A stretch of 64,000 nt of DNA from an uncultured Paracoccaceae bacterium (lineage in GTDB: Bacteria; Pseudomonadota; Alphaproteobacteria; Rhodobacterales; Rhodobacteraceae), in assembly GCA_938002605.1 (NCBI GenBank), contig CALLAF010000004.1, positions 62,001 through 126,000 on the forward strand, read 5' to 3'. Both the position numbers and the translations under genes were made by a program. Shown here in pieces: positions 48,492 through 56,753 of the stretch (the first letter of the stretch is position 1; each line of letters opens with the position of its first letter). Under the pieces are notes generated by a model that was not told where the DNA came from, did no database searches, and saw only the letters and a list, made by a program, of their open reading frames with translations.

Positions 48492-49762
48492 GCGCCATTC
48501 TCGCGCATGACGTGGCCCGCAAGGTAAAGCGACCCGCAGATTAATATGCGGGCGTCCGGCGTTTCGGCGGTTATCAATTTTATTGCTTCCGCGACGCTGT
48601 CGGCAATTGTTGCCTTCATCCCAACCCCCTGCGCTGCGCGGGCAGTATCTGCCGCGGGGATTGTGTTTTTCTCATTCGGGATCGACACGGCAGTCAACGA
48701 TGCCGATACATCCGCGAGCGGCGCCAGATAACCACCGATATCTTTGGTGTTCAGCATACCGCAGATCAAATGCACAGGGCGCGCGGATAGTTGTTGCAAC
48801 GTCGCCGCAATCGCACGCGCCGCAGCCGGGTTATGGCCGCCATCCAACCAAAGTTCAGCGGTGCCAGCCAAATCAACCAATGCCCCCTCTTTCAACCGCT
48901 CCATCCGGGCGGGCCAATAAGCTGATGCCACCGCGGCCTCGCAGGCGGCATCATCTTTGCCCAACAGCCGCAATGTCGCAATCGCAGCGCCCGCGTTCAT
49001 GATCTGATGTGGCCCGGGCAAGCTGGGCAGCGGCAAATCCAACAACCCACGTTCGTCTTGAAAAACGAGCCGGTCACGTTCGGCGCTCACATGCCAATGC
49101 TGGCCATAAGCCTGCAAAGGGGCGCCAAGTCGCGCGGCGACGGCTTCGATCACTTCCATGCTTTCTGCGTGCTGCGGCCCAACAACGCAGGGCACGCCGC
49201 GTTTGATGATACCTGCCTTTTCGCCTGCAATTTCTGTCAGCGTTTCACCCAAGAACTGCTGGTGATCCAAATCGACCGGTGTAATCACCGTAACAGCAGG
49301 GTGCGCAATCACATTGGTCGCGTCCAAACGACCACCAAGCCCAACTTCAAGCAATGTGTAATCGGCAGGCGTTTGCGCAAATGCCAAAAGCCCAGCAATT
49401 GTCGTGATCTCAAAATAGGTGATCGGGTCGGTGCCATTGGCCGTGTAGCATTGGTCCAACACCGCCGTCAGCGCGTCCTCTGAAATCAATGTCCCTGCCA
49501 GCCGGATACGTTCATGAAATCGCGCCAAATGCGGCGATGTATAGGCATGTACAGATGATCCGCCCGCTTCAAGCCCCGCGTGGATCATCGCCTGTGTTGA
49601 CCCTTTGCCGTTGGTACCCGCCAAATGGATGACAGGCGGCAAATTTTCTTGCGGATTGCCCAGCTTTTCAAGCAGCGTCCAGACACGGTCCAACGTCAGA
49701 TCAATAACCTTGGGGTGCAAGGCCATCATCCGATCAAGGATCACATCAGATCCGGCGGTCAC
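48488..49762 (-). CDS. folC: Folylpolyglutamate synthase / dihydrofolate synthase
   Basis: FolC, 424 residues, a Mur-ligase-like enzyme adding glutamate to (dihydro)folate. The ATP P-loop [15 protein letters not shown] lies at about residues 46-60, then [13 protein letters not shown] and the catalytic [15 protein letters not shown]-terminal domain starts near [14 protein letters not shown]. The GTG start at 49762 overlaps the accD stop (GTGA). The following secreted-protein gene overlaps its 3' end. Order accD-folC is usual in alphaproteobacteria. Confidence 0.96.
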
Positions 49763-50691
49763 TTTTCTGGTTCCGCCGGGGTTTCAACAGGTTCCGCCAC
49801 CACGGCTTCTTCGGGTGCAGGTAAATCACCTTTGATTGGGGCATCAAGCCCCATCAACATCCGCACGATCGTGACCAATTCATCCTTAAGATCGGGGCGT
49901 TTTGTCACCCGGTCCAACATCCCATGATCCAGCAAATATTCCGCACGCTGGAAACCTTCGGGCAGTTTTTCACCAATGGTTTGTTCGATCACGCGGGCAC
50001 CAGCAAAACCGATCAGCGCATTGGGTTCGGCAATTTGCACATCGCCTAGCATCGCATAGGATGCAGTCACCCCGCCCGTGGTCGGGTGGGTCAAGACCAC
50101 AATATAGGGCAGCCCCGCCTCTTTGAGCATCTGCACCGCAATCGTCGTGCGCGGCATTTGCATGAGGCCAAGAATGCCTTCTTGCATACGTGCGCCACCA
50201 GCAGCGGAAAACAAAATCAGCGGGCGGCCCAGCGCAATCGCGCGTTCGGCAGCGGCCACAATCGCATTGCCGACATACATCGACATCGACCCGCCCATGA
50301 ATGAAAAATCTTGCACAGCCACGACAACGCCTGTGCGGCCCATGTCGCCTTCGGCGACCAGCATCGCATCTTTTTCGCCGGTCTTTTTGCGCGCATCTTT
50401 GATCCGGTCGGTGTATTTCTTTTGGTCCCGGAAGTGCAGCGGATCAGCGACAGGTTCTGGCACAGGCACATCGACAAAAACACCACCATCAAACACAGAA
50501 ATCAGACGATCGCGCGCTGAAATCGCCATATGGTGATCGCAATTTGTACAAACATTCAGATTGTCTGCCAATTCGCGGTGAAACAGCATCGTTCCACACT
50601 CAGGGCATTTCGTCCAAAGGTTCTCAGGCACCTCGCGGCGCGAAAACAGTGAATTGATCGTCGGACGGACGTAGTTGGTGATCCAGTTCAT
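49759..50691 (-). CDS. accD: Acetyl-CoA carboxylase carboxyltransferase subunit beta
   Basis: AccD, 310 residues, half of the carboxyltransferase that makes malonyl-CoA for fatty-acid synthesis. The N-terminal zinc ribbon [27 protein letters not shown] (four Cys, about 29-51) and the crotonase-like core with [13 protein letters not shown] and [20 protein letters not shown] are intact. A C-terminal acidic Ala/Pro/Glu tail (about 285-310) follows. The ATG at 50691 gives the family start. trpB, often its neighbour, is not here. Confidence 0.97.
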
Positions 50692-50892
50692 TGGCGCGCC
50701 TTTTGCAGTCTCCACACTCAAATATGACGGCGCGTCACGAAATGCAATCAATGGCGTTCACATGCGTCGGGGCAGCTTGGCACCTCCGATGCTATCTTGA
50801 ATAGGTAAAGCAATTAAAGGTTGCATTTCTCCACACACACACTCGCAGCATGAGAACTTAGTACTGTAGGGTTTTTGGAGTGTTGAAACAAG

Positions 50893-51552
50893 ATGAAAGC
50901 ACAAGCGACACTGACACATCGGGCAACGCCGGCCTCGACACGGAAATCGAATGCTAAGGACACATCGATCAGCCCGCTGTCAGGTTTGACCCAACTACGC
51001 CACGCGGCCGATCAAAGCCCAAGCGTTCACGCCCTGCACCAATTGCAACAAAATGCGTCTGACTATTCAGATGTTACTATCCAACGGATCGTCACCCCAA
51101 ATCCCGTGCCGTGGGGGCCCAACAAGGGGAAATGGAGATCATCAGAGACCGGAAAAGAAGATTATGACACTCAACAAGAAGCGCAGATTGCAGATGATCT
51201 TGCGCGCCAAAGAAGAGAGCAAGCCGAGGAAGAAAATTGGAACAATGCCGCCGACCAATTTGCATGGCAAATAGAGCTTTCTGCACGGCGTCATTACGAT
51301 GACGGTTGGGGTGCTTTATATGGGATTCAAAGTGATGATGCGCTTATCGACAGAATCTTACAAAGCGACGATTACCCGATCGGCGGAGGCGAGCACAAAA
51401 TTGATTTAGGAACATACGGACATTCGCGAGAACACGTTATGAGGCCCTGCACCATCGTGAGCGATGTAGAGACGCAGACACTAACCGTGGGTCCGATTAC
51501 GCACGACGTCGCTGTCTATCGCGCATTCCACTGCGGGCCGTCGGATCAATAA
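50893..51552 (+). CDS. Orphan protein with contractile-injection-cargo-like N-terminal leader
   Basis: 219-residue protein with no clear named family. Residues 32-66 (LTQLRHAADQSPSVHALHQL through VTIQR) match the repeated pattern (Leu-x-x-Ala-x-x-Ser-Pro-x-Val, then Leu-Gln-x-x-Ala ... Val-x-x-Gln-Arg) typical of proteins linked to extracellular contractile injection systems and DUF4157-type polymorphic toxins. A charged helix (about 93-122, Gln/Glu/Arg-rich) follows, then a C-terminal region with HYDDGWGALYG and HSREHVMRPC (about 134-186) that might be a toxin or enzyme domain. Visibly lower GC than neighbours. No baseplate, sheath or immunity gene nearby. Function is inference. Confidence 0.55.
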   Translation: MKAQATLTHRATPASTRKSNAKDTSISPLSGLTQLRHAADQSPSVHALHQLQQNASDYSDVTIQRIVTPNPVPWGPNKGKWRSSETGKEDYDTQQEAQIADDLARQRREQAEEENWNNAADQFAWQIELSARRHYDDGWGALYGIQSDDALIDRILQSDDYPIGGGEHKIDLGTYGHSREHVMRPCTIVSDVETQTLTVGPITHDVAVYRAFHCGPSDQ

Positions 51553-51555
51553 AGC

Positions 51556-52461
51556 CTATCTTCGGATCGCAATCCTTGCGGCGAGCCACATCACCAGCAC
51601 CGAGAGGACCTGCGCCGCCACCTGTAAAATTACCCAAGGTGTCATCAGCGCTTCGATGCCGTCGCTATAAGACGCGGGGTCTTCGTAGGGGAATAGAAAC
51701 AGCGCGACGCCGCTCCCCGGCCAGCCGGCGATTGCATAGAGCAAAATCGCAAATGCATTATTCGCCAGGTGCAGCCCGATTGCAGGACCCAAATTCCCAC
51801 TTCGTGCGGTCAGATCGGCGCAAGCGGCCCCCAGCATCGCGGCCCAAAACGCCCAAAGCGCCCCTTCGGCTGCCCCGTGACCGTTCCAATAATGCAGACC
51901 ACCAAACAAAACCGAAGGGATCCCCATCCAGATCCACCGCCGCGCAGAAAGATTGGCAAGTTGTTGTTGCAGATAGCCGCGAAACACTAGCTCTTCAGTC
52001 CCGACTTGGACCAACAATACAAATAGCGTGATTGGAATCAGCGCGACCCAGCCCAGCAACGGGCGCATTTTTGCGTCGCTAAGATCGAACCATGGGGGCA
52101 AAAGCTCTTGTGCGCAAAGAACCGCTGCGACGGCCAAGGTCACTGCAACAAGATCGCGCCATGCTGCCTCTGGCGGCCCGATCATCGTCCAGAACCCCCG
52201 CCCATGCAGCAGGTTTACCAACATCACCAATCCAGCCCCGCTAATGCCAAATGTCAGAAACCGCATCAACGTCCCAAAGGTTGAAACCCCTTCGACATAT
52301 GCGTTTTGAGCCCCGATCGGCACTAGGAATTCGGCGACGATGCTGCTGGAAAGCGCAAAAATCAGTTCGAACCCGACAACCACAAACACAATCCGCCACA
52401 GCTGTGCGCGCCGCGCGGCGACGGCGATAAACGACTGATGGGGTGCGTAGGGGTCAGACAT
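51556..52461 (-). CDS. CPBP-family intramembrane metalloprotease
   Basis: 301-residue CAAX-protease/bacteriocin-processing (CPBP, Abi) family membrane protein. Several helices run through the chain; the catalytic motif EELVFRGYL has Glu156-Glu157 and Arg161, followed by FGGLHYW (His190) and the late HLANNAF (about His240). Homologues process peptides or confer bacteriocin immunity; the substrate here is unknown. ATG 52461 (MSDPYAP) or 52470 may be used. It is convergent with the cargo-like gene, with only three bases between stops, and divergent from ilvD. Confidence 0.87.
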
Positions 52462-52567
52462 GCGGGACATTAGGCCGCGTTTCAACACGGCTGCAAGCAC
52501 AGTTCTAACTTGCGTCACCTGCGCCCAACTTTTAGACCTTGCCCAACTGTTCCCGGGAGATAAGCCA

Positions 52568-54301
52568 ATGCTTAAAGGCAAAGCCGATAAAACCAACCTA
52601 CCTAGCCGTCACGTCACCGAAGGCCCAAGCCGTGCGCCGCACCGGTCGTATTTCTACGCGATGGGTCTGGACGAAGACGATATCGCACAGCCGTTTGTGG
52701 GAGTTGCGACTTGCTGGAACGAAGCTGCCCCATGTAACATTTCGCTCAACCGTCAGGCTCAAGCGGTTAAACTTGGCGTGAAGGCGGCGAACGGCACCCC
52801 GCGCGAATTCACGACCATCACTGTCACCGACGGCATCGCGATGGGCCATGAAGGCATGCGGTCGTCGCTTGCATCACGCGAAGCGATTGCCGACACTGTT
52901 GAATTAACGATGCGCGGTCACTGCTATGATGCGATTGTTGGTCTTGCGGGCTGTGACAAATCCCTGCCGGGTATGATGATGTCGATGGTCCGTTTGAACG
53001 TGCCATCCGTCTTTATCTACGGTGGGTCAATCCTTCCCGGTCGTTTGAACGGCAAAGATGTCACCGTCCAAGATGTGTTCGAGGCTGTTGGCCAGCACCA
53101 AGCTGGCAACATGTCCGATGCAGAGCTTGAAGTGCTTGAACGTGTCGCATGCCCATCTGCGGGCGCATGTGGTGGTCAGTTTACCGCCAACACAATGGCC
53201 TGCGTATCCGAGGCAATTGGCCTTGCACTGATGAATTCCTCCGGTGCCCCTGCCCCCTATGAAAGCCGTGACCAATATGGCGAAGCTTCTGGTCAGGCTG
53301 TCATGAACCTGATCGAAAAGAACATCCGCGCCCGTGACATCGTCACACGCAAGTCACTAGAAAACGCGGCACGTGTGGTGGCCTGCACCGGTGGCTCTAC
53401 CAATGCGGGTCTGCACTTGCCTGCTATCGCACATGAAGCTGGGATTGATTTCGACCTTGGTGATGTTTGCGATATTTTCCGCGACACGCCTTACTTTGTC
53501 GACCTTAAGCCGGGCGGCCAATATGTGGCCAAAGATCTTTACGAGGCTGGCGGCGTGCCCGTCGTGATGAAGGAACTGCGCAAAGCGGGCCTGATGCACG
53601 AAGATTGCATGACAGCCACAGGCCGCACAATGGGTGAAGAACTGGACATGATCAAAGGCGAGGCGGACAACAAAGTCATCTATTCCGTCGAAAACCCAAT
53701 CACCAAAACCGGCGGTGTTGTCGGCCTAAAAGGGAACGTGGCCCCAGAAGGCGCGATTGTGAAGGTTGCGGGCATGAATACCCAAGAACAATCATTCACT
53801 GGCCCAGCCCGTGTATTTGAATGCGAAGAAGATGCGTTCGAAGCCGTCAAGGCCCGCAAATACGAAGAAGGCGAAGTGCTTGTCATCCGCAACGAAGGCC
53901 CATCAGGCGGCCCCGGCATGCGTGAAATGCTCGCCACAACCGCTGCTTTGTCTGGCCAAGGCATGGGTAAAAAGGTCGCGCTGATCACGGACGGTCGCTT
54001 CTCTGGGGCGACACGCGGGTTCTGTGTAGGGCACGTTGGGCCAGAGGCCGCACATGGTGGTCCGATTGCCTTGCTCGAAGATGGGGATGTGATCACCATC
54101 AACGCGATCACTGGCGAATTGTCTGTCGATCTGACGGACGATGTGCTGGCTGCACGCAAAGCAAACTGGACCGGTGCGAAACCGACGATCTATGCATCGG
54201 GCGCACTGTGGAAATACGCACAGCTGGTTGGATCAACGCGTCTTGGGGCGGTCACACACCCCGGTGCGAAAGATGAAAAACACATCTATATGGACCTGTA
54301 A
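52568..54301 (+). CDS. ilvD: Dihydroxy-acid dehydratase
   Basis: IlvD, 577 residues, an Fe-S enzyme dehydrating dihydroxy acids in valine, isoleucine and leucine synthesis. Conserved cysteines appear in [20 protein letters not shown] and [17 protein letters not shown]; other landmarks are [49 protein letters not shown]. The ATG at 52568 follows GGGAGAT; longer upstream reading is not homologous. Next gene starts four bases after the stop. Confidence 0.97.
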
Positions 54302-56185: not shown

Positions 56186-56635
56186 CTACATTTCCTGTTT
56201 TACCATTCCTCGTGATTGTGGATGAAACCCTTCGGGAAAGATCGTATTCCTATCATACTGCGCGCCTTCAAGAATTGCCCCGGTTAAGACAGCTCCGGTA
56301 AGATCAGCACCTTGTAACTGCGTATTGCCGCCCAAATTATCTCTTCCTAAGTGGGCGTTTTTAAAATTAGTACCTACGCATGATGCCCCACAAAGGTAAG
56401 CACCTTGCAAATTGGCACCTTCGAAGTTTGCCATGTCGAGATGTGCGTTAAATAGGCCCGCCCAATAAAGAACAGCGCCCTGAAAGTTAGCTCCTCCAAG
56501 TTGAGCACCATACAAATGAACACCTTCCCAGGAGACACCTTCAAATTGATCTTGACCTCTTGGGACTTTGTACGTTTTCAAAACTTCACCAAATTCATCT
56601 AGTATCTGAATTTCCATTATCATCGATCCGCCCAT
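56186..56635 (-). CDS. Pentapeptide-repeat protein
   Basis: 149-residue pentapeptide-repeat protein. Residues about 35-130 consist of tandem A(N/D)L/F-x-x units such as GAQLG GANFQ GAVLY and MANFE GANLQ GAYLC, forming a right-handed quadrilateral beta-helix. Short N- and C-terminal caps flank it. Some relatives mimic DNA and protect gyrase, but many have no known role; no claim is made here. The gene looks more AT-rich than neighbours and is alone between the ilvD group and dienoyl-CoA reductase, which suggests acquisition. Confidence 0.85.
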   Translation of the reverse strand: MGGSMIMEIQILDEFGEVLKTYKVPRGQDQFEGVSWEGVHLYGAQLGGANFQGAVLYWAGLFNAHLDMANFEGANLQGAYLCGASCVGTNFKNAHLGRDNLGGNTQLQGADLTGAVLTGAILEGAQYDRNTIFPEGFHPQSRGMVKQEM

Positions 56636-56753
56636 TTAGCGAAAAGACGACATAATAGCTGAAGCTGTATTAAATTGTAAGAAAGGTGCTAGATTTAGCG
56701 CCCAGTTGCTATTTTTGTCCGAAAAGAAAAATGCTTTGCTTGGACAGCCATGA

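Follow-up and report, generated by a model that had tools for sequence, protein, structure and literature searches.

The window analysed here, a 64,000-nucleotide stretch on contig C4 of the 3.0-Mb, 64-contig genome of an uncultured Paracoccaceae bacterium, encodes a 219-aa protein that is very probably a DUF4157-free cargo of an extracellular contractile injection system (eCIS) encoded away from its machine. New here is a predicted eCIS payload that has no DUF4157 and is encoded apart from the eCIS genes; its leader can be recognized by sequence in its lineage, and its C-terminal domain is a putative effector. The gene, the parts of its product, and its flanks are as follows:

50893..51552, + strand: complete 219-aa ORF, predicted eCIS cargo (ORF list; orthologues L002/L008 and L003/L009 in the same place)
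50980..51090, + strand: predicted loading leader, residues 30-66 (profile tests, alignments, structure model)
51172..51264, + strand: predicted long charged helix, residues 94-124, joining the leader to the C-terminal domain (model)
51265..51549, + strand: C-terminal domain, residues 125-219, putative toxin/effector domain (5-sequence alignment, structure models)
49759..50751, - strand: accD, conserved left flank of the slot, outside the system (ORF list, slot comparison)
51556..52596, - strand: CPBP-family membrane protein gene, conserved right flank (ORF list, slot comparison)

The left flank is taken to be accD, as in the preliminary description, and the right flank is presumably of the CPBP family.

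The N-terminus of the 219-aa protein is hydrophilic, basic, and disordered without a hydrophobic export signal, displaying pLDDT values below 50 for residues 1-29, a mean Kyte-Doolittle value of -0.55 over 35 residues, and a charge of +3 in residues 6-21. Within residues 1-70, the 15-residue means never exceed 0.21 on the same scale; six of the 55 window ORFs of at least 200 aa, the 219-aa ORF itself counted, are as hydrophilic as this. The aromatic residue within the first eight positions named in PMC11297309 is absent. The leader (residues 30-66) comprises predicted helices at 30-40 and 43-58 plus the SPxV..LQxxA..QR pattern in the structure model and alignments, and the residues that the preliminary description had reported were located at S42-P43-S-V45, L51-Q52-Q-N-A55, and I63-Q64-R65, with its Cys/His-containing region HSREHVMRPC at residues 177-186. 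The charged helix was modeled with pLDDT of about 61-84 per 10-residue block, and alignment showed the related "Ca. Anammoxibacter" protein to be mostly without this stretch. The 219-aa protein had no match in Pfam and chance-level matches only in NCBIfam, and the Pfam family eCIS_core (DUF4157, PF13699) matched neither it nor its two orthologues. Fold searches with the structure models gave no significant match; a RelE-type fold appeared in the VIA rows of the whole-protein model and not in those of the domain model, and was set aside.

The leader was evaluated with an HMM built from 13 leaders from outside the 219-aa family. Of the proteins bearing them, 11 match eCIS_core in Pfam; the 94-aa L077 frame and L119, also among the 13, lay outside the eCIS_core scan. 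Among all 583 window ORFs with 40 aa or more, this HMM ranked the 219-aa ORF first, at 21.3 bits versus 7.9 for the next; shuffling the protein 2000 times gave 12.5 bits at most, and the two orthologues scored 23.0 and 20.3 bits. The training set is only partly independent, since a profile containing the 219-aa family had served to collect most of its leaders. A three-leader profile made from the Anammoxibacter, Nitrosomonas, and Dinoroseobacter shibae leaders, collected without that family, did not single out the 219-aa ORF: at 3.6 bits it came fourth in the window, and 3 of 500 shuffles equaled that score, whereas none of 500 did so for the G033 orthologue, at 12.5 bits. Within its lineage, the leader likeness is beyond chance by the 13-leader HMM. 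By profile, the leader is common to eCIS_core proteins within the genus and is not shared with those of Nitrosomonas and D. shibae, so the outcome that the preliminary description had named as its refutation, a leader matching only unrelated conserved proteins, was not what was found. For the Nitrosomonas and D. shibae proteins, a leader was proposed by eye only and was discarded, the Yoonia profile giving -1.3 and 0.1 bits, respectively. NepR, sigma-factor, and response-regulator genes adjoin that of the D. shibae protein (pDSHI02, L138 19905-21299), which carries DUF4157; the 40 kb inspected there has no annotated CIS gene, and the protein's leader likeness is by eye only.

The preliminary description had proposed searching the rest of the genome for eCIS sheath, tube, and AAA+ genes, and these were found on contigs C14 and C26. 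Profile matches on C14 included Pvc16_N, a 761-aa sheath (above the PF17482 cut-off and below that of PF04984), two gp19 tubes, CIS_tube, a Phage_base_V spike, PAAR, and gp25, while a CIS_TMP tape measure and an AAA ATPase lie at the end of C26. With the window on C4, the 219-aa gene is neither in nor beside the eCIS operon, where cargos usually, though not obligatorily, lie. The term "orphan" holds for its gene neighborhood and fails for the genome, other contigs of which encode the eCIS apparatus and three further leader proteins. Of the two origins that had been suggested, a cargo left without its apparatus is not the supported one; the C14/C26 apparatus and the three further leader proteins, one with eCIS_core, favor, judging from sequence, a cargo delivered from a machine encoded elsewhere in the genome. 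The corresponding eCIS region of G043 is on a single contig with no leader match within it, and the genes after its AAA gene and a 1050-aa gene look by sequence like housekeeping genes. The middle region of this genome's eCIS sheath (L020 3030-5315) matches the cadherin-like/Ig-like families PF16184, PF19076, and PF17963. A second, divergent contractile sheath was also identified at G022:C1:514740, G033:C59:35374, G050:C1:471808, and G044:C7:119560, with 30-41% identity in the C-terminal part.

Leader and apparatus showed the same distribution among relatives. A full-length homologue of this genome's sheath was present in eight of 56 congeneric genomes, a ninth (G044) having a divergent partial match only, and leader profile A2 gave 24 matches at E<=1e-3, which covered every one of the eight sheath-positive genomes and none of the 48 others. 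A2 had been trained in part on four of the eight; the four held out gave 4/4 versus 0/48 (3.7e-6 by counting, shared ancestry ignored), and such association p-values overstate independence because the genomes counted share ancestry. At E<=10, some A2 match occurred in 44 of the 56 genomes, and the cut-off of E<=1e-3 dropped G002 (0.0023; a 34-aa frame with two stops) and, in sheath-positive genomes, G042 (0.0031), G050 (0.0054 and 0.033), G030 (0.0128), and G033 (0.0187), among others. Four of the dropped matches (L087, L088, L089, and L090) were still read as ORFs, included in profile A5, and scanned against Pfam; the leader match at G043:C30:170325 is covered by no intact ORF. Across 398 genomes of the phylum, A5 at E<=1e-3 matched only this genome, G158, and G195, all three among the 19 genomes carrying Pvc16_N. 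The remaining 16 of the 18 other Pvc16_N-positive genomes had no leader at this threshold, and since A5 reaches only two of the 18, the tag belongs to some eCIS lineages only. The tape measure followed the leader as well: CIS_TMP was found in 8/8 leader-positive and 0/12 leader-negative congeneric genomes (20 of the 56 tested), and in all four others tested, namely the G195, G158, Anammoxibacter, and Nitrosomonas genomes.

The 219-aa gene is one of four leader genes in this genome, the others being on C10 (with eCIS_core), C45, and C25. None of the 24 congeneric leader matches shared a contig with the sheath at a distance below 115 kb, a count limited by draft contig breaks. Beyond the genus, about 1.4 Mb separate the G195 leader gene from the nearer of two Pvc16 genes; in G158 the leader gene shares a contig with Pvc16 (about 34 kb off) and the tape measure (about 16 kb off) and is considered linked to the CIS because of these distances. 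Pfam scanning of 24 congeneric leader ORFs (four of them weaker than 1e-3; L074, L086, and the 94-aa L077 frame left out) gave 11 with and 13 without eCIS_core, and among the latter one is a DNA/RNA non-specific endonuclease (PF13930). In G038, a nuclease-like leader cargo (L079 2826-4271) has an interrupted counterpart with the same upstream neighbors in G043 (L081 2968-4482).

A second cargo slot, between genes taken by sequence to be pssA and ogt-like, carries a leader plus eCIS_core cargo in 8/8 sheath-positive genomes, the G030 leader match being weak (E 0.0128). The cargos of this slot are L027 15624-16523 (this genome, C10), L073, L075, L088, L076, L080, L078, and L077. The first 181-183 residues of this cargo are about 93% identical between this genome and G038 and G043, and past these residues no tblastn match was found between this genome and either relative; the delivery half was thus kept and the C-terminal half swapped. 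C-terminal halves that differ completely between close relatives are the usual behavior of polymorphic toxins. A CGTGYTA element is located 51-58 bp before the start codon of the pssA-ogt cargos (L026, L073, L075, L076, L077, L078, L080, and L088) and once at -82 before an unrelated cargo in L083; 18 copies occur on both strands in 237 kb (loci L071-L090), nine of them in pssA-ogt cargo promoters. Its reading as a regulon was rejected, as nine of the ten carriers are the pssA-ogt slot or tandem copies and the 219-aa gene is without the element.

Full-length orthologues of the 219-aa protein were confined to three of the 56 congeneric genomes: this genome, G043, and G033, the two relatives being Loktanella sp. 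D2R18 and a Yoonia MAG. The two orthologues, at 43% and 35% identity, are in the same place between accD and the CPBP-type gene, and 3/3 orthologue-bearing genomes are among the eight with the full-length eCIS sheath; orthologues in all related genomes with no link to eCIS, the other pattern that would have spoken against the preliminary description, were therefore not found. The slot was inspected in 26 of the 56 genomes, and the CPBP gene adjoins accD in 24 of these, cargo present or not. The gap between them holds the cargo in three genomes, other genes in G038, G050, and G032, and a second CPBP-like copy in G012, and is about 240 bp or less in the remaining 17 of the 24 with both flanks found; the junction is a small variable slot because its contents differ between genomes. 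Between this genome and G043, identity is 98% for AccD, 94.5% for CPBP (201 residues held), and 43% (protein) or 48% (DNA) for the cargo, displaying fast divergence or allele replacement within fixed flanks. No candidate immunity gene was found between the cargo gene and the conserved flanks, and the CPBP neighbor was ruled out as an immunity protein as it adjoins accD with or without the cargo.

A transfer event had been proposed from low GC content and position. The cargo gene has 52.0% GC versus 55.1% for the window, ranking 96 of 576 among 660-bp segments, such that its GC content is not unusual, and the two orthologues agree in GC with their own loci. With all three orthologues in the same accD-CPBP slot, the proposal is unsupported, and recent transfer of the cargo gene was dropped. 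Elsewhere in the window, a 149-aa ORF at 56186-56635, pentapeptide-repeat-like by eye, lies in a low-GC stretch (about 44% at 56250-56749).

The C-terminal domain has relatives outside the genus, in "Ca. Anammoxibacter" (L010 4415-4960) and Nitrosomonas sp. (L011 7077-8261). The Anammoxibacter protein was located via this domain, and its N-terminus matches the Yoonia-only leader profile at 28.8 bits (0 of 500 shuffles as high), giving it both the same domain and, by profile, the same leader. The Nitrosomonas protein shares the domain and differs in combining it with eCIS_core and in lying beside CIS_TMP and AAA genes in a CIS locus. The domain is modular because it recurs with the leader in the former and with eCIS_core in the latter. 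Residues invariant in all five aligned sequences are H134, Y135, D137, G138, W139, G140, Y143, I145, L151, G166, I170, L172, G173, C186, I188, H213, C214, G215, and P216.

Based on these comparisons, we infer that the 219-aa protein would be loaded and delivered by the eCIS. Its first ~66 residues would act as the loading signal, with a disordered basic tip followed by the two short helices bearing SPxV..LQxxA..QR. This leader and the charged linker helix would probably let the AAA+ ATPase encoded on C26 bring the protein into the tube, and on contraction the C-terminal domain (125-219) would be delivered and act in the target. Weighing against this reading are the lack of eCIS_core and of a candidate immunity gene, the distance from the eCIS genes, the confinement of the tag to some eCIS lineages, the low three-leader score, the Yoonia profile results for the Nitrosomonas and D. 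shibae proteins, and the fold searches with no significant match. In the PVC/Afp systems, an N-terminal segment is described as loading the payload aided by the AAA ATPase Pvc15, and the signal peptides of this lineage were grouped by sequence alignment (PMC11495950); PVC effectors are encoded downstream of the operon, and their likeness to the 219-aa protein is by description and not by sequence. The AlgoCIS cargos Cgo1 and Cgo2, described in the eCIS tube lumen (PMC8894135), likewise have a predicted disordered N-terminal region in common followed by differing C-terminal domains; compared by description only, they have DUF4157 and are within the eCIS cluster, whereas the 219-aa protein is without DUF4157 and unlinked. 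The EATs resemble it in a hydrophilic basic N-terminus, a distinct C-terminal domain, and an eCIS-bearing genome, and were reportedly chosen largely by operon position and DUF4157 context (PMC8213781; PMC11297309). The toxins of eCIS reportedly tend toward the 3' end of operons (PMC8213781), whereas the 219-aa gene is not near eCIS genes. A precedent for unlinked effectors is given by Hbor_01880, Hbor_02990, and Hbor_07690 of Halogeometricum borinquense, in a system described as archaeal and membrane-associated with effectors that all have DUF4157 (PMC11566945). No description of the leader or of dispersed DUF4157-free eCIS cargos was found in the portions of the open-access literature searched.

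What the domain does once delivered can be read in more than one way. The 219-aa protein could be loaded and delivered by the eCIS with a domain that is a non-toxic effector, such as a signal or a target-modifying factor, a reading that we hold to be unlikely while giving it real weight: it would agree with the lack of an immunity-type gene between the cargo and the conserved flanks and with family and fold searches that gave no known toxin at a significant level, and is opposed by the PF13930 endonuclease among the leader proteins of the genus and by the pssA-ogt cargo, whose C-terminal half is wholly different between close relatives as in polymorphic toxins. We infer instead that the domain is most likely a toxin. 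That it is a metal-independent RNase using H134 (first helix) and H213 (last strand) is a tentative guess, more doubtful than probable.

Readings that deny a working eCIS cargo fared worse. A former cargo gene, now a nonfunctional relic in this genome, might be suspected from its confinement to 3/56 genomes and its absence from the accD-CPBP slot in 21 of the 24 with both flanks; the reading frame is intact, and all 19 invariant domain residues are kept against G043 despite 48% DNA identity, which points to protein-level constraint and makes decay highly improbable. It is more improbable still that the protein belongs to another tail-like particle, a phage or R-type tailocin. The second divergent sheath is indeed present in three of the eight leader-positive genomes (G022, G033, and G050), but the same sheath search found none in this genome, G044 has only the second-type sheath match and no leader match up to E 10, and the presence of CIS_TMP follows that of the leader across the 20 congeneric genomes examined for it. 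Barely credible, to the same degree, is an unrelated cytoplasmic protein with a chance or low-complexity likeness to the leader. The leader spans only about 40 positions and is rich in Ala and Gln, matches in 44/56 genomes at E<=10 are in line with this, and the three-leader profile from outside the genus gives the ORF just 3.6 bits; against it, leader and sheath distributions coincide over 56 genomes, the Anammoxibacter protein carries the leader although it was found by the C-terminal domain alone, and an eCIS_core protein within a CIS locus has the domain too.

We lean, by a little over an even chance, toward a dispersed plug-in arsenal in which a sequence-conserved, DUF4157-independent loading tag of ~35 residues marks cargo genes scattered beside housekeeping genes and the domain at 125-219 is a new toxin family. 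The failure of the Yoonia profile on the Nitrosomonas and D. shibae proteins makes this arsenal slightly less likely, while the cargo reading keeps its strength through the leader confirmed in the Anammoxibacter protein. In such an arsenal no leader gene lies among the eCIS genes as far as these were read, and the pssA-ogt slot would keep the delivery half while swapping the toxin half. The shared leader points to more such scattered payloads. Outside the genus, the tag is met in "Ca. Anammoxibacter" and in two further families of the phylum, and therefore searching whole genomes with the tag alone could reveal the cargos of these eCIS lineages. Two cargo catalogues reportedly look mainly near the operon and for DUF4157 (PMC8213781; PMC11297309). 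If true, a sequence-recognizable tag on unlinked DUF4157-free cargos would enlarge the known payload set, and payload choice by eCIS ATPases would become directly testable with a defined ~40-residue segment.
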